Source: Ignavibacteriota bacterium
Lineage (GTDB): Bacteria; Bacteroidota; Ignavibacteria; UBA10030; UBA6906
Length of the DNA stretch: 38,939 nucleotides
NCBI GenBank assembly: GCA_003158475.1
Contig: PMJR01000085.1
Location: 18,992 to 57,930 of the forward strand
Direction of reading: 5' to 3'
Shown: piece after piece, positions 3,836 to 22,387 of the stretch
Position numbering within the stretch: position 1 is the stretch's first letter
Layout of the letters: each line of letters starts with the position of its first letter
Notes under the pieces: generated by a model
What the model saw: the letters and a program-made list of their open reading frames with translations, nothing else
The model's database searches: none
What the model was told of the DNA's origin: nothing
Program-made: the position numbers and the translations under genes

Positions 3836-4756
3836 ATGTCGGGCGATATCGTCCTGCAGACGGTCAATCTGGGGAAGAAATACGGCGATCGTTGGGCCGT
3901 TCAGGGGCTGAACCTCTCGGTGTTCCGCGGAGAAATATTCGGCTTCCTGGGACCGAACGGAGCAGGAAAGAGCACCACAATCCGCATGCTTCTCTCGCTG
4001 ATCGCCCCGAGCACCGGATCGGTGGAACTCTTCGGACTCCCGCTCCGCGAGAACAGGGGGACGGTCCTTGCCCGCGTGGGGGGACTTGTCGAACGGGCAG
4101 ATTTCTATCTTTACCTCTCCGCCCGCCGTAACCTTGAAATTGTCGCGGATCTGAACGGGGGGGTCTCTTCATCTGCGATCGACGAAGTACTGGAGACCGT
4201 CGGCCTTGCCGAACGCGCAGGAGACAGGGTCAAGTCATATTCCCACGGCATGAAACAGAGGCTCGGTCTCGCTGCCGCCCTTCTGGGCTCGCCGGAACTG
4301 GTCGTGCTCGATGAACCGACGAGCGGGCTCGATCCGCACGGCATCAAGGAAGTGCGGGATTTGATCGCCCGCCTCGCCGCCGAGCGGAAGGTCACCGTCT
4401 TCCTTTCCTCCCATCTCCTTTCCGAGATCGAACATCTGGCCACGAGCATGGCCATCATCAACAACGGTTCTCTTGTCGTCCAGGGGAGTGTGAACGAATT
4501 GCTCGGTGCCGGGACAGGGACCGTGCACGTCATCGCGGTCCCCGCCGGACGGGCGCTGGAAATCATCCGTTCCCTCCCGTACGTAGAGGGGGCGACACTC
4601 GAGCAGGAGGGGATCCGGGTGAAAATTCCCGCGGCGCATGCCGGCTCGATGAACGCCGAACTTGTCCGCGCCGGGATAGAAGTCCGGGCGCTCGTTCCCG
4701 AGCGCTCGCTCGAAGAGTACTTTCTGTCCATCACGGGAGAGGTGCCCGGGCTATGA
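3836..4756 (+). CDS. ABC transporter ATP-binding protein (ABC-2/exporter type)
   Basis: This is the ATPase subunit that powers the adjacent membrane permease. The 306-residue protein has Walker A GPNGAGKST (residues 39-47), the ABC signature in YSHGMKQRLG (around 135), Walker B with LDEPTSGLD (around 157) and the switch His in SSHLLSE. A C-terminal extension of about 90 residues is typical of ABC-2 exporters such as drug or bacitracin-resistance transporters. I chose the ATG at 3836, with GAAGG 8 nt upstream, over the in-frame TTG at 3821. Its stop overlaps the permease start by 4 bp (ATGA), indicating translational coupling. The substrate cannot be deduced. Confidence 0.93.
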   Translation: MSGDIVLQTVNLGKKYGDRWAVQGLNLSVFRGEIFGFLGPNGAGKSTTIRMLLSLIAPSTGSVELFGLPLRENRGTVLARVGGLVERADFYLYLSARRNLEIVADLNGGVSSSAIDEVLETVGLAERAGDRVKSYSHGMKQRLGLAAALLGSPELVVLDEPTSGLDPHGIKEVRDLIARLAAERKVTVFLSSHLLSEIEHLATSMAIINNGSLVVQGSVNELLGAGTGTVHVIAVPAGRALEIIRSLPYVEGATLEQEGIRVKIPAAHAGSMNAELVRAGIEVRALVPERSLEEYFLSITGEVPGL

Positions 4757-5592
4757 TGCGGGTGATCATCGGCAATGAGATTCTCAAAACATTTCGAAAG
4801 TGGCGGACGTACATCGGGTTCATCGCCGTGGGGGTGGTCGTCCCGCTCGTCGAATTCGGGCTCAAAGCGGAGGGAGGGTCGCTCGTCCGGAACATGACGC
4901 GCGGGCTTGGGGAGGACTTCCTCATCGTCGGAAACCTGTTCAACGCCTACTTCATCACATACTTCATCATGAACAGTCTCTGGGTCCACGTCCCCTTCCT
5001 GATAAGCCTCGTTGCAGGCGATCAGCTTGCGGGAGAGGCGACCGGAGGCACATTCCGGCTCATGCTCATCCATCCCCCGTCGCGGAGCCGCATCCTTGCG
5101 GCAAAATACGCGACAACCCTCCTGTACACGTTTTCGCTCGTCGCATTTCTCGCCCTGCTCGCCCTCGGGCTGGGTCTGGCTCTCTTCGGGACGGGAGACC
5201 TGATCGTCCCCGGCAGGACGCTGACAATCATTCCCCGGGGGGACGTGCCATGGCGTCTTGCCCTTACCTTCGGCCTGGGCATCTGGAGCATGTGGTGCGT
5301 GGCGTCTCTCGCGTTCCTGTTTTCCTCCCTCGTCGAGAATGCCATCGGCCCCATCATCGGGACGATGGCGGTGATCATCGTCTTCCTTGTCGTCAGCTCC
5401 ACGCCGATCTCCCTCTTCACGGCGGTCCGCCCGTACCTGTTCACCACGTACTTCAATGTCTGGCAGAAAGTGATGGAACAGCCGGTTCCCTGGAGTGAGA
5501 TCGTCACACACACCGCCTACCTGGGGCTCTTCAGCATTGGTTTTTACATTGCAGCTTGGTATATTTTCGTCACCAAAGACGTGCTGAGCTGA
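4753..5592 (+). CDS. ABC-2 type transporter permease
   Basis: The 279-residue membrane protein is the partner of the upstream ATPase. A cytoplasmic N-terminus with a first hydrophobic segment (about 18-35) is followed by segments around 58-82, 117-145, 170-195, 200-222 and 253-272, the six-helix layout expected for ABC-2 permeases. The start ATGATG overlaps the ATPase stop. No signal peptide or periplasmic domain is visible. It may export a lipid, drug or peptide, but nothing in the sequence decides this. M24 peptidase follows after 36 bp, probably in the same transcript. Confidence 0.9.
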   Translation: MMRVIIGNEILKTFRKWRTYIGFIAVGVVVPLVEFGLKAEGGSLVRNMTRGLGEDFLIVGNLFNAYFITYFIMNSLWVHVPFLISLVAGDQLAGEATGGTFRLMLIHPPSRSRILAAKYATTLLYTFSLVAFLALLALGLGLALFGTGDLIVPGRTLTIIPRGDVPWRLALTFGLGIWSMWCVASLAFLFSSLVENAIGPIIGTMAVIIVFLVVSSTPISLFTAVRPYLFTTYFNVWQKVMEQPVPWSEIVTHTAYLGLFSIGFYIAAWYIFVTKDVLS

Positions 5593-5628
5593 TTCTCCTC
5601 CTTGCCATCTCACCAATCGGGAAGCGCC

Positions 5629-6804
5629 ATGGACATCCAGAAAATCCAGAAGGCACTCAGGGACAAACGCATCGACGGCTGGCTGCTGTGTGATTTTCGC
5701 AACCGGGACTATCTCGCCTATCGTGTGGTCGGCCTCAATTTCGAAAAAATGACGAGCCGCCGGTGGTACTACTATATCCCGGCAAAGGGGGAACCGAGGA
5801 AACTCGTCTCCGCGGTGGAGCGGATGCGTCTCGACTCGCTCCCGGGGAAGCGGATGGTCTACCTCTCCTGGCAGGACCTCCACAGCTCGCTCAGGAAGAT
5901 GATGGGCCCGAAGAAGAAGATTGCGATGCAGTATTCCCCGAAGAACAACGTGCCGTACGTCTCCATGGTTGACGGCGGCACGATCGAGCTTCTGAAAAGC
6001 CTCGGGTACAAAATCGTTTCCTCGGCCGATCTCGTCCAGATGTTCGTCTCCGTGATTCCGGAAGAGGGCTACCGGACACACATCGAGGCGGGGCGCCTCA
6101 TGGACCGCATCCGTGCACAGGCGTTTGACCAGATCCGGAACGCGGTCCGGAACAACACCGGTGCGACCGAGTACGACATACAGCAGTTCATGATGAAACG
6201 CTTCAAGGAAGAGGGCCTGACGACGTACGATCCTCCCATGGTGGGGGTGAACGATCATCCGGCCGATCCCCACTTCGATACCTTGAAAGAAGGAGCCCGT
6301 CAGTTCAAGCCGGGGGACACGGTGCTTATCGACATGTGGGCGAAGAAGGACGTTCCGGGGGGGATTTACTACGACATCACGTGGGTGGGCTACATCGGCG
6401 CGACGCCTCCCGCGAAGTATGTGAAGATATTCGCAGCCGTGAAGGCGGGGCGCGACGCCGCCGTGAAATTTGTCCAGGAAAAGTTCGCAAAAGGCGAGAC
6501 CTGTTACGGATGGCAGGTGGACGACGCATGCCGCAACGTGATAAAGAAAGCTGGATTCGGCAAGTACTTCCTCCACCGTACCGGACACTCGATCACGGAG
6601 GAGACGCACGGCAACGGCGTCAACATCGACAATCTGGAGACGAAAGACGAGCGGGCGCTCCTGCCGGGGTGCTGCTTCTCCATCGAGCCCGGGATCTACC
6701 TTGAAGGGGAGATGGCGGTCCGGACGGAGATCAACATGTTCATACGACACGACGGTGTCCCGGAGGTGACGGGGGAAGTCCAGCAGGACCTCGTGCTCCT
6801 CTGA
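5629..6804 (+). CDS. M24 family metallopeptidase (Xaa-Pro aminopeptidase-like)
   Basis: This is a pita-bread-fold dinuclear metal aminopeptidase, probably removing N-terminal residues from peptides. The N-terminal creatinase-like domain (about 1-150) precedes the catalytic domain. The five metal ligands are all present: Asp235 (LIDMW), Asp249 (YYDITW), His320 (RTGHSI), Glu353 (SIEPG) and Glu367 (RTEIN). At 391 residues it fits the Xaa-Pro aminopeptidase/dipeptidase group. The ATG at 5629 is chosen because GGGAAG lies 5 nt upstream; an earlier TTG at 5602 has no such site. No signal peptide, so cytoplasmic. The following POT-like transporter suggests peptide uptake and breakdown together (inference). 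Confidence 0.92.
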   Translation: MDIQKIQKALRDKRIDGWLLCDFRNRDYLAYRVVGLNFEKMTSRRWYYYIPAKGEPRKLVSAVERMRLDSLPGKRMVYLSWQDLHSSLRKMMGPKKKIAMQYSPKNNVPYVSMVDGGTIELLKSLGYKIVSSADLVQMFVSVIPEEGYRTHIEAGRLMDRIRAQAFDQIRNAVRNNTGATEYDIQQFMMKRFKEEGLTTYDPPMVGVNDHPADPHFDTLKEGARQFKPGDTVLIDMWAKKDVPGGIYYDITWVGYIGATPPAKYVKIFAAVKAGRDAAVKFVQEKFAKGETCYGWQVDDACRNVIKKAGFGKYFLHRTGHSITEETHGNGVNIDNLETKDERALLPGCCFSIEPGIYLEGEMAVRTEINMFIRHDGVPEVTGEVQQDLVLL

Positions 6805-6847
6805 CCGGCCCTCCTCACCGTACCCACAAAGAAGAAACAGGATTCCC

Positions 6848-8125
6848 GTGTCCTTTGCACAGCGACTGAGGGCCACGTACGAGACGTTCCATCCCACGTT
6901 CTGGGTGGCAAACGGGATGGAGCTTTTCGAGCGCCTCGCCTATTACGGCCAGCAGATAGTGTTCATGATCTACCTGCGGAACAATCTCGGGTTCTCCGAG
7001 GCGCAGGCAGGGACGCTCTCCGGGATATTCGGCGGTCTGATTTACCTCATGCCGATACTCGCCGGCACGCTGGCGGACAAGTGGGGGTTCCGGCGGGCAT
7101 TCAACCTGGCATTCACGATCCTTGCCCTCGGCTATTTCGCAATCGGCACGATGGGGATGGGCGCGTTCTCCGGCATATACGGAGGTACGGTTCCGTACCC
7201 GCTCCTGGTGGCGTTTCTCGTGCTGACGGCGTTCGGGGGCTCGTTCATCAAACCCTCGGTGCTGGGGACGGTGGCGGTCACAACGACCGAACAGACGAAA
7301 TCGCTCGGCTTTGCTGTCTACTACTGGCTTGTGAACGCGGGCGCGATGATCGGACCCACGATCGCCTACCTCGTCCGCGACTGGTTCGGGAACGAGTACG
7401 TCTACATGGTATCGTCCGCGAGCTGCCTGGCGATGCTGCTTGTAAACATCTTCCTGTACAAGGAGGTGCGGAGCGCAAGGACAGAGGTGGTGGAGTCGAT
7501 GGGGAAGAAGATCACCAACCTCTTCGTCGTCCTTGCCAATTTCCGTTTCATGATATTCCTCCTGATATATTCCCTCTACTGGATCATATTCTGGCAGGAA
7601 TTCATCATCGTCCCGTATTACATCACCGACTACATCAACAAACAGGCTCCCTATGAAATAGTCCAGTCCTGGGCGGGGGCCGGGGCGATCATCCTCTTTC
7701 AGATCCCGATCAACCGGCTCACGAAGAATATCCCCACGCGCAAGGCGATCCTGATCGGATTTGCCGTTTCCTCGCTTATCTGGGTTATCATCGGCATCTC
7801 TCCGAGCATCCCCACGATAGCGGCCGGCATCGTCGCATTCGCGATCGGCGAAATGATCCAGGCTCCCCGGTATTATGAATACATCTCGACGATAGCTCCC
7901 CCCGGGCAGCAGGGGCTCTTCCAGGGATACGCATTCCTGCCGATCGCCATCGCCCGGTTTGTCGGCGACCCGCTGGGAGGGTGGCTGTACCAGACGTCGA
8001 AGGCCATGGGGAAGCCCCACTACGTCTGGTTGGCGCTGATCGCCATCGGGGTTCTCGCCACACTCCTGATGCTCGCGTATAATAAATTCCTCGCGCCCGA
8101 AGACCAGCCGGGGGTGGCACCGTGA
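6848..8125 (+). CDS. MFS transporter of the proton-coupled oligopeptide (POT/PTR) type
   Basis: A 425-residue polytopic membrane protein with about 12 hydrophobic segments. The first helix carries ELFERLAYYG (residues 25-34), matching the ExxER motif (Glu25, Glu28, Arg29) that couples protons in POT peptide transporters. Loop LADKWGFRRAF after helix 2 is the major-facilitator signature. It is shorter than classical 14-helix bacterial POTs (~480-500 residues), so it may belong to a sister MFS group with another substrate. The GTG start at 6848 has AGGA upstream. Its stop overlaps the next gene's GTG start (GTGA). The neighbouring aminopeptidase favours di/tripeptide uptake. Confidence 0.82.
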   Translation: MSFAQRLRATYETFHPTFWVANGMELFERLAYYGQQIVFMIYLRNNLGFSEAQAGTLSGIFGGLIYLMPILAGTLADKWGFRRAFNLAFTILALGYFAIGTMGMGAFSGIYGGTVPYPLLVAFLVLTAFGGSFIKPSVLGTVAVTTTEQTKSLGFAVYYWLVNAGAMIGPTIAYLVRDWFGNEYVYMVSSASCLAMLLVNIFLYKEVRSARTEVVESMGKKITNLFVVLANFRFMIFLLIYSLYWIIFWQEFIIVPYYITDYINKQAPYEIVQSWAGAGAIILFQIPINRLTKNIPTRKAILIGFAVSSLIWVIIGISPSIPTIAAGIVAFAIGEMIQAPRYYEYISTIAPPGQQGLFQGYAFLPIAIARFVGDPLGGWLYQTSKAMGKPHYVWLALIAIGVLATLLMLAYNKFLAPEDQPGVAP

Positions 8126-15069: not shown

Positions 15070-15885
15070 TCACCACGGTCCCCACCCCGGGCACTCCACG
15101 CGAATGACGTTCCAGGCTATCCCGGATCGCTTCATGCGGACCGTGGCCACCCCCGAAGCAGAGAGGGAACGGAGGGTCCCGGCCTCGAGCCCCGTCCAGG
15201 AGATTGCGAACCGCACGCTGGCATATCCCCGCTCAACGGTACATCCTCTCTCCGTTACATCGGAACCCGTGAAGACCGCGATCCCTGCAACGAACGTGTC
15301 AATCGAACGCCGCATCTCCTCGCGCGTGACGGGCCTCCCCGAGGGACTGTAGAGTTCCTCCCTGTCTGACCTCTGCATGCACCCTTGCGTGTCCCTTCCG
15401 AAGAGCGCATAAAGAAAATGCCCCGCAAACATAGTCGCGCACGCCTCCTCATCGGGGTGGAAATCCTCGTACACGAAGCTGTGCGTCATTCCCGCGATCC
15501 GAACGTCGTCGATTTCCATGTCAAAAAGTTCTTCGACGATGAACCTGTAAGCCTCGGCAGGGGGAACGGTCCGGTCGAAGTGGACAGCGATTGCGTTTGC
15601 TCCGAGGTGATCGATCAATCTGCGGAGTTCCCCCGGGATTTGCCGGGGGGGGAGTGATGAGGGGGGAGTGAAGCGCGGGTTCCCGGCATAGGAACGGACG
15701 GTCGTCTTTCCGACTCCCTGGAACTGCCTTTCGAACTCTTCTACGGTGTCAAGCCACTCGCCTATGATCTCGGGGGGAGCATCCGATTCGCTGAAGGAAA
15801 ACCGGGCTCCGTATTTCTCCTCCAGATTCTTCCGCTTCTGTTCGTTCAGCGCGCGTTGTATGCGGTCCTGCGTGTCGTCCGGCAT
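15070..15885 (-). CDS. Hypothetical protein, not recognised
   Basis: A 271-residue soluble protein. Residues 1-60 are charged and helical (RALNEQKRKNLEEKYGARF and IIGEWLDTVEEFERQF), followed by a mixed alpha/beta region with many acidic residues (FIVEELFDMEIDDVRI, FVYEDFHPDEE). The last 60 residues are strand-rich (ASVRFAISWTGLE, VATVRMKR, WNVIRVECPGW) and vaguely recall NTF2-like folds, but I do not assign one. GGAGAG lies upstream of the ATG at 15885. It follows folA after 60 bp on the same strand, so it may be the third gene of thyA-folA. Confidence 0.72.
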   Translation of the reverse strand: MPDDTQDRIQRALNEQKRKNLEEKYGARFSFSESDAPPEIIGEWLDTVEEFERQFQGVGKTTVRSYAGNPRFTPPSSLPPRQIPGELRRLIDHLGANAIAVHFDRTVPPAEAYRFIVEELFDMEIDDVRIAGMTHSFVYEDFHPDEEACATMFAGHFLYALFGRDTQGCMQRSDREELYSPSGRPVTREEMRRSIDTFVAGIAVFTGSDVTERGCTVERGYASVRFAISWTGLEAGTLRSLSASGVATVRMKRSGIAWNVIRVECPGWGPW

Positions 15886-17691: not shown

Positions 17692-19575
17692 ATGAACCCG
17701 AAAAAATACTTCTGGCCGGGATGGGTGGGGTGTCTCTTTTTGGCATCTGCGGTGGTAACCGCCGCCGGCGAAAAACAGATCGTCTCTCTCAAAGACCTGA
17801 GCGAGACGCAGGTCAAGTGCGCCGGGTTCCAGATTCAACAGGAAGCAATTGTTCATATCAAGGCGGTGGGCGCAGGGGGCGAAAACAAGTGGTCATATCG
17901 GAACGGCGATCGCGGCGGGGACTTGACCGCGTATCCCTGGATCATTGACGCCGATACGCGCAACGTGGTCTGGGAGATGACCGTCGATAACTCCTCGAAA
18001 TGGAAGGATGAAAGGAGTTTCGACGGAACGGTGACGCTCCCGGCCGGTTCCTACGAAGTGTATATCGCCGCCGCAACGTTTTCCATCAACACCGCATTCA
18101 CCCACATCTCGATGACCGTCGACCACCGGAAGAATCCGCTCTTCGGCGACGTGCGGGAAGAAAAGAAGAATTTCTTCCACTGGCTTTCCGGCTGGTGGTC
18201 CGACGACTTCATGAAGTCGTGGGACAAACGGTCCCGGACATGGGGGATCGATCTCCTTGTCGATGAATCCGTCGTCGTCTCGTCGTTCAATCCCCCCAAA
18301 GCCCGCGACAATGTGGTGATCAAGGCGACGGGTCTCGGTGAAAACGAGGTTATCCGGAAGTCGTTCTCGCTCGGCGAAGCCGCAACGCTGTTCATCTACG
18401 CACTGGGGGAAGGGGACAAGGAGAATCAGCTCTCGGACCACGGCTGGATCGTGAACACGGCCGACAGAAAACGCGTATGGGAGATGCAGCTTCGCAACTG
18501 CACGTACGCCGGAGGAGCGGAAAAGAACATCCGCTACGTCAACTCGGTCACACTTCCGAAAGGCGACTACACTCTCTACTATGTAACGGACGGAAGCCAC
18601 TCGAGCGTCTGCTGGAACGCGAACCCCCCGTATGATCCGCTCAGCTGGGGGATCACGGTGTCCGCCGACCACGAAAAAGAACGGAAGAACTTCAGGGCGA
18701 TCCCGAACGAGGATGACCGGAATGTCGTCGTGAGCCTCATCCATCCCAAGAACAGCGACTACCTGTCGGAGGGATTCACGCTGAAGAAGGACGCCCGCAT
18801 CCGCATCTACGCGATCGGCGAGAGGGACAATTCACGCCGCTCGATGGCGGACTACGGGACGATCCTCGACGCAAAGACGCGCGAGAAGGTCTGGACGATG
18901 GACGTCGATAGGACGTCGCACGCCGGGGGCGCGTCAAAGAACCAGTATATCGATGAGATCGTCACCCTCCCCCGGGGAAACTACATCGTGACGTACACGA
19001 CGGACGATTCGCACGCGTACGACGACTGGAATTCGGATCCTCCGTATGACAAGGAACACTACGGGATCACGGTGATGGGTGTCGGGGAAAAATGGGATCC
19101 TTCGATTGTCGGCAAGTACACCGAAGAGCGGAACAGGAACATCATCGCCCAGATCGCACGTCCCGGCAACAGCGTCGATGCATCAAAACCGTTCACCATC
19201 GACAAGACCACGCGCGTCCGTGTCTATGCGATCGGGGAGGGGATGGGCAGGGAGATGGACGACTACGGCTGGATAGAGGATGCACGGACGGGCACGGTGG
19301 TATGGGAAATGACGTACCGGATGACATTTCACGCCGGGGGCGACCGGAAAAACCGGATGGTGAACACCACCATCATACTCGATCACGGGAGTTACCGGCT
19401 CCGGTTCAAGAGCGACGATTCACACTCGTTCGGAGACTGGAACGCGGATCCTCCCGATGATCAGCAGTACTGGGGAATCACGCTCTACCGGGATGATGCG
19501 CCCCCCGCTCCGGGAGGTCCCGCCGCCCCGATGCCGCCGGCGACTCCCGAACCTCCGGACGATCCCGATAATTGA
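17692..19575 (+). CDS. Secreted protein of four repeated ~120-residue modules, function unknown
   Basis: From the ATG at 17692 a 627-residue protein begins with a good signal peptide (NPKKYFW, hydrophobic VGCLFLASAVV, cleavage near AAG). Four homologous modules follow at about 29-146, 193-327, 344-465 and 482-600, and a Pro-rich tail ends the protein. Each module has a strand like RVYAIGEG, a D(Y/H)GWI.D..T..VWEM block and LP.G.Y; modules 2-4 add HAGG/YAGG..KN and a closing (T/S)D(D/G)SHS..DWN.(D/N)PP.D...WGIT. The pattern suggests beta sandwiches related to pre-peptidase C-terminal domains (inference). A frame open from 17338 and an ATG at 17530 with GGAAGG exist, but the latter overlaps the opposite promoter and would put 54 residues before the signal. 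No T9SS tail. Confidence 0.85.
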   Translation: MNPKKYFWPGWVGCLFLASAVVTAAGEKQIVSLKDLSETQVKCAGFQIQQEAIVHIKAVGAGGENKWSYRNGDRGGDLTAYPWIIDADTRNVVWEMTVDNSSKWKDERSFDGTVTLPAGSYEVYIAAATFSINTAFTHISMTVDHRKNPLFGDVREEKKNFFHWLSGWWSDDFMKSWDKRSRTWGIDLLVDESVVVSSFNPPKARDNVVIKATGLGENEVIRKSFSLGEAATLFIYALGEGDKENQLSDHGWIVNTADRKRVWEMQLRNCTYAGGAEKNIRYVNSVTLPKGDYTLYYVTDGSHSSVCWNANPPYDPLSWGITVSADHEKERKNFRAIPNEDDRNVVVSLIHPKNSDYLSEGFTLKKDARIRIYAIGERDNSRRSMADYGTILDAKTREKVWTMDVDRTSHAGGASKNQYIDEIVTLPRGNYIVTYTTDDSHAYDDWNSDPPYDKEHYGITVMGVGEKWDPSIVGKYTEERNRNIIAQIARPGNSVDASKPFTIDKTTRVRVYAIGEGMGREMDDYGWIEDARTGTVVWEMTYRMTFHAGGDRKNRMVNTTIILDHGSYRLRFKSDDSHSFGDWNADPPDDQQYWGITLYRDDAPPAPGGPAAPMPPATPEPPDDPDN

Positions 19576-20428: not shown

Positions 20429-22387
20429 ATGACCCTTTCGGTACGATGTTGTGTTCTTCTCCTTGCCATCTCCCTCCCCCTGAACGCCCGTGCACAGCAG
20501 TTCAGGGTTGACACGCTTGCCCGGGGGCCCGCGATACAGCTCCCGTCTGCCATCGCGTTCATACCGGGATCGGTTGACAGGTTCTTCTTCGCCGAGCGAA
20601 GCAGCGGACGGGTGCGTCTGTATGACGGTTCGGTACGCCCCGGTTCGTTCCTGACGGTTCCCGTGGAGGACGAGAATGAACAGGGACTTCTCGGCGTTGC
20701 GGTACATCCCCTCTATCCTGATTCCCCTTTCGTGTACGTGTTCTACGTCCGGGCGATCGACCGGGCCGGCATTCTCGAGCGCTACCGTGACCAGGGTGGC
20801 GAAGGTGTTTCACCGCAGTTGCTCCTGTTTATTGCACGCCGCGATGACGCCACGCAGAATAACGGGGGAGCGCTCCGGTTCGGTCCGGACGGAAAGCTCT
20901 ATGTCGCGGTCGGAGATCACGCGGCCAAACCGTCGAATGCGCAGGATACGCTGGGGGGAAGAAATCTCCGCGGTAAGATTCTGCGCCTGAACCCGGACGG
21001 GACGGTCCCCGCCGACAATCCCTTCCCCGGGAGGTATTTCTGGTCCTTTGGCCTTCGCGACCCTTCAGGCCTCGGGTTCGATCCGAAGAGCGGGCGGCTG
21101 TACGTCACCGAAGGGGGGGCGACTCTCACCAACGACGTGATCGCCATCTCACGCGGGGCAAACCTCGGATGGCCGGGACGCCACAAGAGCGCGCCCGAGG
21201 CAGAACATCTCCCGGTGATCCTCTACAGCACGGGACACGGCGATCAACCCGACCTCACGGGGATCGCCGTCTACCGGGGGGATTTTTTTCCGAGGCTTAA
21301 CGGGAAAATCCTTTTTGCGGGAAACGCAGACCCGACGCTTTGGGTGGGCACGCTGAACAGCGCCGGGGATTCACTCGCCGCCTCGCCGATGTACCGCTCC
21401 AACACGGGCTTTTCGGATGTTCAGGTCGGCCCGGACGGCTGCATTTACCTGGCGAACGGTCCCTACCGGGGAAGCAGGATTGTCCGGCTCTCCCCCCTTC
21501 CGCCGCAGTTTGTTTCGGAGGCTCCGTTGAACGCCGTCCTCGGAGAGCAGTACATCTACACGCCGGCGTTTTACGGCACCCCCCCGGTCCTGGATATTCT
21601 GAGCGGCCCCCGTGGGATGGTCATCGACTCGACGGACTGGAGCATTCACTGGGTCCCGACAAAACTCGAAGCGCTCGAAGGGAAACAAACAGTCATTCTC
21701 CGCGCGCGCAATGGCGCCGGCTCGGCCGATCTGCGGTTCACGCTCGCAGTTCAGAATGTCAACGAGCCCCCGTCCCCCTTCGCGCTCACGTCCCCTCCCG
21801 ACGGAAGCGAACGTCGGTTCCTCGGCGAGGACCCCTATCTGACATTCAGCTGGTCGCCGGCGCGCGACCCGGATCTGGACACCGTCCGATACACGCTTCA
21901 GATCGACACCGTTGCCACGTTCAGCAGCCCTTTTCACTTGAACATCGACGCAGGGACCTCCAACTCTCTTCGCATTCCGCTCCCTCAGGCAAGCAACGCC
22001 TATTTCTGGCGGGTGGCTGCCACAGATGGTAAAAGTGTGACGCTCTCCGTCCCCCGGCTGTCCCGCATCGAAGTGGTCTTCTCAAAATTCCTTGGCCGTG
22101 AACGAGCCCGGCACGTCGAGCCCGTCCCCGAACAGAGTCTGCCCGCATCGTTCAACCAGGTCAATCCGGAGCCGAGCATCAGATACTCGGTGCCGCGCGA
22201 CGGTTATGTGCGCCTCACCGTCTTCAACCTGCTCGGACAGGAAGTTGCCCGTCTGTACGACGGGATACAGCAGGCGGGGACGTACGACGTGGGGATCGCA
22301 AACGTGAATCTTCCCAGCGGGATTTATTTCTACCGCCTCATCGTGCCCGGTTTCGCAGAAACCAAGAAGATGGTGGTCTCCAGGTAA
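20429..22387 (+). CDS. Secreted PQQ-dependent sugar dehydrogenase-like protein with T9SS sorting domain
   Basis: The 652-residue protein has a signal peptide (residues 1-22, ending NARA), then a beta-propeller of the soluble aldose/glucose dehydrogenase family (about 30-355): EQGLLGVAVHP, NNGGALRFGPDGKLYVAVGD, LRGKILRLNPDG, WSFGLRDPSGLGFDP and GANLGWPG. An Ig-like domain (about 365-450) and a fibronectin-III-like domain (about 455-550) follow. The type IX secretion C-terminal domain (about 580-652) has YSVPRDGYVRLTVFNLLGQEV, AGTYDV and LPSGIYFYRL. The usual catalytic His before NGG (HNGG) is Asn here (QNNGG), so dehydrogenase activity is uncertain. It is expected on the cell surface or secreted. 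Its stop is 3 bp from the convergent phosphatase gene. Confidence 0.9.
   Translation: MTLSVRCCVLLLAISLPLNARAQQFRVDTLARGPAIQLPSAIAFIPGSVDRFFFAERSSGRVRLYDGSVRPGSFLTVPVEDENEQGLLGVAVHPLYPDSPFVYVFYVRAIDRAGILERYRDQGGEGVSPQLLLFIARRDDATQNNGGALRFGPDGKLYVAVGDHAAKPSNAQDTLGGRNLRGKILRLNPDGTVPADNPFPGRYFWSFGLRDPSGLGFDPKSGRLYVTEGGATLTNDVIAISRGANLGWPGRHKSAPEAEHLPVILYSTGHGDQPDLTGIAVYRGDFFPRLNGKILFAGNADPTLWVGTLNSAGDSLAASPMYRSNTGFSDVQVGPDGCIYLANGPYRGSRIVRLSPLPPQFVSEAPLNAVLGEQYIYTPAFYGTPPVLDILSGPRGMVIDSTDWSIHWVPTKLEALEGKQTVILRARNGAGSADLRFTLAVQNVNEPPSPFALTSPPDGSERRFLGEDPYLTFSWSPARDPDLDTVRYTLQIDTVATFSSPFHLNIDAGTSNSLRIPLPQASNAYFWRVAATDGKSVTLSVPRLSRIEVVFSKFLGRERARHVEPVPEQSLPASFNQVNPEPSIRYSVPRDGYVRLTVFNLLGQEVARLYDGIQQAGTYDVGIANVNLPSGIYFYRLIVPGFAETKKMVVSR

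Follow-up and report, generated by a model that had tools for sequence, protein, structure and literature searches.

A four-module exported protein of Ignavibacteria and its relatives: a new domain family with a predicted jelly-roll fold and a putative metal site

The four-module gene and its surroundings

The stretch of DNA analysed here (the window) spans 38,939 nucleotides of an Ignavibacteriota contig (PMJR01000085.1). On its + strand, positions 17692-19575 encode an exported protein of 627 aa with four modules, recognised as an open reading frame and supported by relatives and by a module profile. The reading frame is genuine, with the start Met, a signal peptide ending in AAGE and the overall length all kept in same-genus relatives. 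The signal peptide occupies residues 1-26 (17692-17769, +) and closes with VVTAAGE, of which the AGE boundary is kept in relatives. Of the 123 family members, a simple and rather crude script gave 107 a signal-peptide-like N-terminus and 13 an anchor-like or lipobox-like one, several of these "anchor-like" cases resembling ordinary signal peptides; the other 3 are cut at contig ends or have no clear N-terminal segment. The preliminary description of this DNA had called the protein exported, and the conserved signal peptide bears this out. At the other end, a short, variable and Pro-rich tail (19498-19572, +) follows the last module. Since the median number of residues after that module is 3 in the family, most members have no room for a C-terminal sorting domain. 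On the best reading the protein would be a binding scaffold, either periplasmic or associated with the outer membrane (OM).

Between signal peptide and tail lie module 1 (17770-18267), module 2 (18304-18672), module 3 (18718-19086) and module 4 (19132-19497), all on the + strand. Modules 2 to 4 are closely related by BLASTP (E-values of 8e-35 for modules 3 and 4, 1e-29 for 2 and 3, and 4e-24 for 2 and 4), and module 1 matches the others at 5e-7 (with module 4) to 1e-9. A module profile built without any window sequence scored modules 1 to 4 at 38.7, 137.4, 148.1 and 147.5 bits; among 2000 shuffled versions of the whole sequence the highest score was 8.5 bits. The D(Y/H)GWI...VWEM block that had been read in all four modules is literal in modules 2 and 4 only; module 1 has AYPWI...VWEM and module 3 has DYGTI...VWTM. 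The closing motif was described as present in modules 2 to 4 and absent from module 1, and so it is: it takes the form TDGSHS..CWN..PP.D...WGIT in module 2 and TDDSHA..DWN..PP.D...YGIT in module 3, and module 1 retains only the last strand (RTWGIDL), which there follows an inserted helical stretch.

On one side the gene has a divergent neighbour, judged by eye to be thymidylate-synthase-like, and on the other a convergent gene for a pseudouridine synthase. Elsewhere in the window, positions 20429-22387 encode an exported glucose/sorbosone dehydrogenase-like protein, the end of which resembles a type IX secretion sorting domain, and two open reading frames on the - strand, 4111-6897 (928 aa) and 15070-15885 (271 aa), have no Pfam match.

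Predicted fold and comparison with known domains

Nothing in Pfam, NCBIfam or the PDB reaches the cut-off for this protein, and the preliminary description, which recognised no named family, was correct in its caution. Searched whole against Pfam, the protein gave DUF5013 (PF16405) just below the cut-off, plus weaker chance matches. The DUF5013 match covers 31 residues of module 1 (3.6e-6; 27.6 bits against a gathering cut-off of 28.5), and a few further family members have similar sub-threshold matches over 31-50 residues. Membership was rejected on the score, and DUF5013 was not found in 148 genomes of the phylum. A whole-protein search of NCBIfam and a PDB sequence search returned nothing meaningful, and a profile of 63 diverse modules found nothing in the PDB, so that no family with a solved structure is matched by sequence or profile. 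The 63 modules scanned singly against Pfam gave no consistent family; a strong match of a single module to a characterised family was thus found in neither Pfam nor the PDB. No description of the four-module family was found in a literature search that left subscription papers mostly outside its reach, and a plasmid search with the whole protein gave no match.

A beta sandwich had been proposed as a structural check, and AlphaFold2 confidently predicts one, in the form of a jelly roll. Module 4 modelled alone with 63 diverse modules gave eight strands (4-9, 16-23, 27-38, 41-50, 56-59, 74-83, 86-93 and 114-120) at a pLDDT of 96.4 and a pTM of 0.89, and the mature protein modelled with 34 sequences gave a mean pLDDT of 87 and a pTM of 0.80. 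Foldseek matches of the module 4 model include PPC/collagen-binding (5sv5, E 7e-4), GOLD, Kremen (a CUB-containing chain), viral haemagglutinin-type and carbohydrate-binding module (CBM) jelly rolls, among the last CBM6 and a Bacteroides CBM; all are weak, with TM about 0.4-0.5 (query-normalised 0.36-0.45). The full-length model matches, again weakly, CUB pairs (MASP, C1r/C1s), C1q/TNF heads and DeCLIC. The fold class of the models is clear, the PDB holds no close relative, and the likeness to PPC, GOLD, CUB and CBM domains is at the level of the fold only.

The comparison with CUB domains (PF00431) extends beyond the jelly roll itself. In CUB domains, as seen in the Ca2+/ligand site of C1s and in bona fide Bacteroidota members, the β3-β4 hairpin bears a Glu and an Asp-Tyr, and the seventh strand is followed by (S/T)-D-x-S. 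The counterparts in the module would be E36, D44-Y and S-D95-D-S97 (module numbering), with hairpin and strand matched by our own alignment, which has no statistical support. In the CUB domain of C1s, the lysine of the ligand is bound by Glu45, Asp98 and Ser100, and Asp53 is an indispensable part of the Ca2+ site (PMC4222235); by the same matching of our own, Glu45 and Asp53 lie on the hairpin equivalent to that of the module, and Asp98 and Ser100 follow the equivalent strand. Unlike the CUB sequences compared, the module has a long 7-8 loop with H98, WN and PP, and the structural similarity reaches a TM of about 0.45 at best. Membership of the CUB family is not supported: among the families listed there was no Pfam CUB match for the protein (E 10) or for the 63 modules, and hhalign against 12 bacterial CUB domains returned a 1.7% probability. 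Among 99 genomes sampled from the phylum, 8 have true Pfam CUB domains, for the most part within large open reading frames (L173-L184).

PPC/collagen-binding domains (PF04151) are, like the module as predicted, bacterial extracellular jelly rolls and provide the best PDB match (5sv5, E 7e-4), and PPC-like domains bind Ca2+ (PMC12664993). Their conserved residues differ from those of the module. Membership was rejected here too, as Pfam PPC was absent from the families listed for the whole protein and for the 63 modules and the fold likeness stays below a TM of 0.5 (5sv5, TMq 0.38, TMt 0.44). The N-terminal domains of DeCLIC are jelly rolls arranged in tandem in the periplasm, and their acidic Ca2+ site is made up of one Asp and an Asp-Asp pair; in NTD1, Ca2+ is held by Asp76, Asp123 and Asp124 (PMC12664993). 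DeCLIC differs in being part of an ion channel, and the PDB search (E 10) found no sequence match between it and the module.

The putative polar site and the family that carries it

Five polar residues of the module are close to invariant. In a set of 198 non-redundant modules (under 62% identity, sensor-inserted single modules included), E36 is kept in 195, D44 in 197, N74 in 197, D95 in 196 and H98 in 198, with P108 in 196 and G115 in 198. Among the 123 four-module proteins (a set with some duplicates), modules 2, 3 and 4 retain the five almost without exception, and 16 sensor modules retain them all. In the window protein the site is intact in modules 2, 3 and 4. Codon by codon in module 4 (+ strand), E36 (19237-19239) and D44 (19261-19263) bound the β3-β4 hairpin segment 19237-19263, N74 (19351-19353) sits in the AGG..KN loop, and D95 and H98 belong to the S-D95-D-S-H98 loop (19414-19425). 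The closing motif, which had been said to look like a metal- or ligand-binding loop, is part of a larger invariant set. These residues are placed on loops 3-4, 5-6 and 7-8, which average 2.2-2.5 bits of conservation compared with 1.4-1.9 for loops 1-2, 2-3, 4-5 and 6-7. If consecutive strands alternate direction, as in a jelly roll, the three loops would lie at one pole, with greater variability in the loops of the opposite pole; the clustering of the five residues there is accordingly a prediction from strand order. A conserved Trp 103 and a Trp/Tyr at 114 are close to the closing motif.

Module 1 is a blank copy. Its fold residues are kept (W58 in 123/123, G86 in 123/123, Y88 in 120/123), and the site is jointly lost: E36 is kept in only 8/123, D44 in 7/123, D95 in 3/123 and H98 in 5/123, the last two counts reflecting absence of the loop rather than substitution, since the 7-8 loop alignment is mostly gapped by the insertion. 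The window protein conforms, with the equivalents of W58, G86 and Y88 present, those of E36, D44, N74, D95 and H98 gone, and an extra helix before WGIDL. Module 1 had been described as unlike the others, correctly so, but the loss of the opposite half of the site (E36 and D44) had been overlooked. As the five residues are near-invariant in modules 2 to 4 and jointly lost in module 1, modules 2 to 4 can be regarded as three equivalent sites. A functional divergence of module 2 through replacement of Asp by Gly in the closing motif, on the other hand, has to be abandoned: position 96 is freely Asp or Gly in every intact module (Gly in 22/123 for module 2, 36/123 for module 3 and 46/123 for module 4), which is ordinary variation beside an invariant D95.

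The proposed genome search for other module-bearing proteins turned up a widespread family. The full protein is present in 33 of 41 related genomes, once per genome in most, with an identity to the window protein of mostly 46-63% outside the genus. Of 297 genomes drawn from across the phylum, 51 gave matches to the module profile, and in one zixibacterial phylum 53 of 80 sampled genomes have the protein. A contig-wide profile scan yielded 151 relatives, and the 80 of these on which the taxonomic spread rests came from Ignavibacteria, Rhodothermia, Kapabacteria, KSB1, Calditrichota, Zixibacteria, Marinimicrobia, Latescibacterota and Gemmatimonadota, together with one Thermoanaerobaculaceae and one MAG labelled Actinomycetota. 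Copies number 1-2 per genome in genomes chosen by name. Nearly all relatives are ~600 residues long and comprise one weak module and three strong ones, and the window protein has the defining features of the family: a signal peptide, a blank module 1, intact modules 2 to 4 and a length of ~600 aa. In a tree of 75 modules, position labels need 8 changes compared with 41.5 in shuffles, and the sensor modules form one group (99/94); the alignment has few columns, the deeper forks are weak, and some position groups fall into more than one clade. Because modules group by position across phyla, the four-module plan is old, and recent tandem duplication in each lineage was rejected. This cross-phylum plan had escaped the preliminary description, as had the single module found in sensors.

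Some Reg_prop/HTCS sensors (PF07494) carry one copy of the module between propeller blades; the window protein, unlike these, is without propeller, kinase or phosphatase. For example, a hybrid two-component system protein (P0002 of genome G009) with histidine kinase, receiver and AraC-type output has the module in its propeller. At L039:3-4748, in a relative of the window's family, such a hybrid sensor (Reg_prop, HisKA, HATPase, receiver, AraC-type HTH) carries the module in its propeller. In other genomes the proteins that hold the module are of the Reg_prop/Y_Y_Y type and carry either a SpoIIE-type phosphatase or a HisKA_3 kinase. The insertion point lies between one blade and the next, and a similar lead, helical in appearance, comes before the module. 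One locus (L071, G255:C38:168000-187500) has four consecutive genes of ~1250-1280 residues, each with Reg_prop/Y_Y_Y, one module and a C-terminal SpoIIE-type phosphatase; this array is a lineage-specific expansion.

The neighbours of the four-module gene vary by lineage (Omp85/DUF5686-like, DUF4097, PmbA/TldD, Asparaginase_2, FtsX/MacB), and a single conserved operon for the whole family was rejected. Seventeen loci, from Ignavibacteria/Chlorobi, KSB1 and Calditrichota, have a same-strand gene for an Omp85/DUF5686-like barrel, which is found downstream of the four-module gene in Ignavibacteria but upstream of it in KSB1 and Calditrichota. In 13 of the 17 it is directly adjacent (L027, L029, L031-L034, L102, L108, L114, L130, L132, L146, L147), with gaps of -82 to 32 bases between the reading frames, and the two genes look like a conserved partnership. 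Most loci, the window included, have no adjoining barrel gene. DUF4097 "toastrack" and LiaF-like genes are found in KSB1 and Calditrichota clusters (e.g. L130, 5331-6131; L097, 2698-3567). In Zixibacteria, PmbA/TldD genes lie upstream, as a pair in ten loci (L125, L126, L128, L131, L133, L135, L138, L152, L154, L168), and four loci encode a small barrel-looking protein with no Pfam match. Some Ignavibacteria have an exported Asparaginase_2 just downstream. With no neighbour universal and the window's own neighbours apparently unrelated, the link to an OM barrel, which comes from gene order in some lineages and not from the window itself, is no more than suggestive.

Possible functions of the modules

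Together the modules form a domain family that is new and widespread but belongs to a known fold class. The site lends itself to testing, and the function can only be inferred. The intact modules likely carry a metal site, still putative. Given the invariant site and the CUB and DeCLIC precedents, the function that we tentatively rank first is Ca2+-dependent binding of a ligand, with a confidence a little short of even. The exported protein would consist of four tandem domains of one unnamed family folded as jelly rolls, three of them (modules 2-4) bearing the E36/D44/N74/D95/H98 set and module 1 serving as a structural copy without it. E36, D44 and D95 would hold Ca2+, like the Glu/Asp/Asp of CUB domains and the acidic clusters of PPC-like domains and DeCLIC, and the pole organised by Ca2+ might bind a ligand, most probably a group that is basic or rich in hydroxyls and is carried by a protein or polysaccharide of the envelope. 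Three such sites in a row could provide avidity, and the domain inserted between the propeller blades of two-component sensors may do the same job as a sensing module. An invariant His is an unusual Ca2+ ligand and counts against this proposal.

Three alternatives were weighed. The modules could be metal-independent, CBM-like binders of carbohydrates or peptides, with the invariant Asp, Asn, His and Trp touching the ligand directly. We consider this unlikely, although the fold matches include CBM6 and the Bacteroides CBM, the motif has Trp 103 and Trp/Tyr 114 nearby, and glycans are often what propeller sensors detect. In CBMs the binding site usually differs from one ligand to another, and the five polar residues are instead 98-100% invariant across sensors and scaffolds; nor did glycan-use genes recur next to the gene in the loci examined. 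Somewhat less probable again is that the invariant residues merely lock loops, through a structural metal or a hydrogen-bond network, in a rigid spacer or a chaperone of OM proteins. The pTM of 0.80 for the whole four-module arrangement and the barrel neighbours of several lineages would suit such a role, but the site is strictly retained both in modules 2-4 and in the sensors, which speaks for function rather than folding, and the fold seems independent of the site residues, as module 1 was modelled confidently without them. The third alternative, in which modules 2-4 would be small enzymes, each with its own Asp/His/Glu/Asn active site, is improbable: catalytic residues do usually show invariance as high as that of E, D, N, D and H, but the domain has ~110 residues, occurs in three copies per chain and is inserted in sensors, and no fold match points to an enzyme catalytic domain.

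Carried further, the proposal of Ca2+-dependent binding would point to an undescribed recognition domain, analogous to animal CUB domains but separate in origin, used in the FCB group both as a conserved three-site envelope scaffold paired with a barrel and as a plug-in module of two-component and PP2C-type sensors; in this full form it is a doubtful, speculative reading. The protein is exported, conserved and mostly single-copy in several barely studied phyla, and has had neither a domain name nor a function. Each protein holds three intact sites and one natural knock-out copy, so the site can be tested at once. The identity of the ligand would also indicate what the module-bearing sensors may detect.
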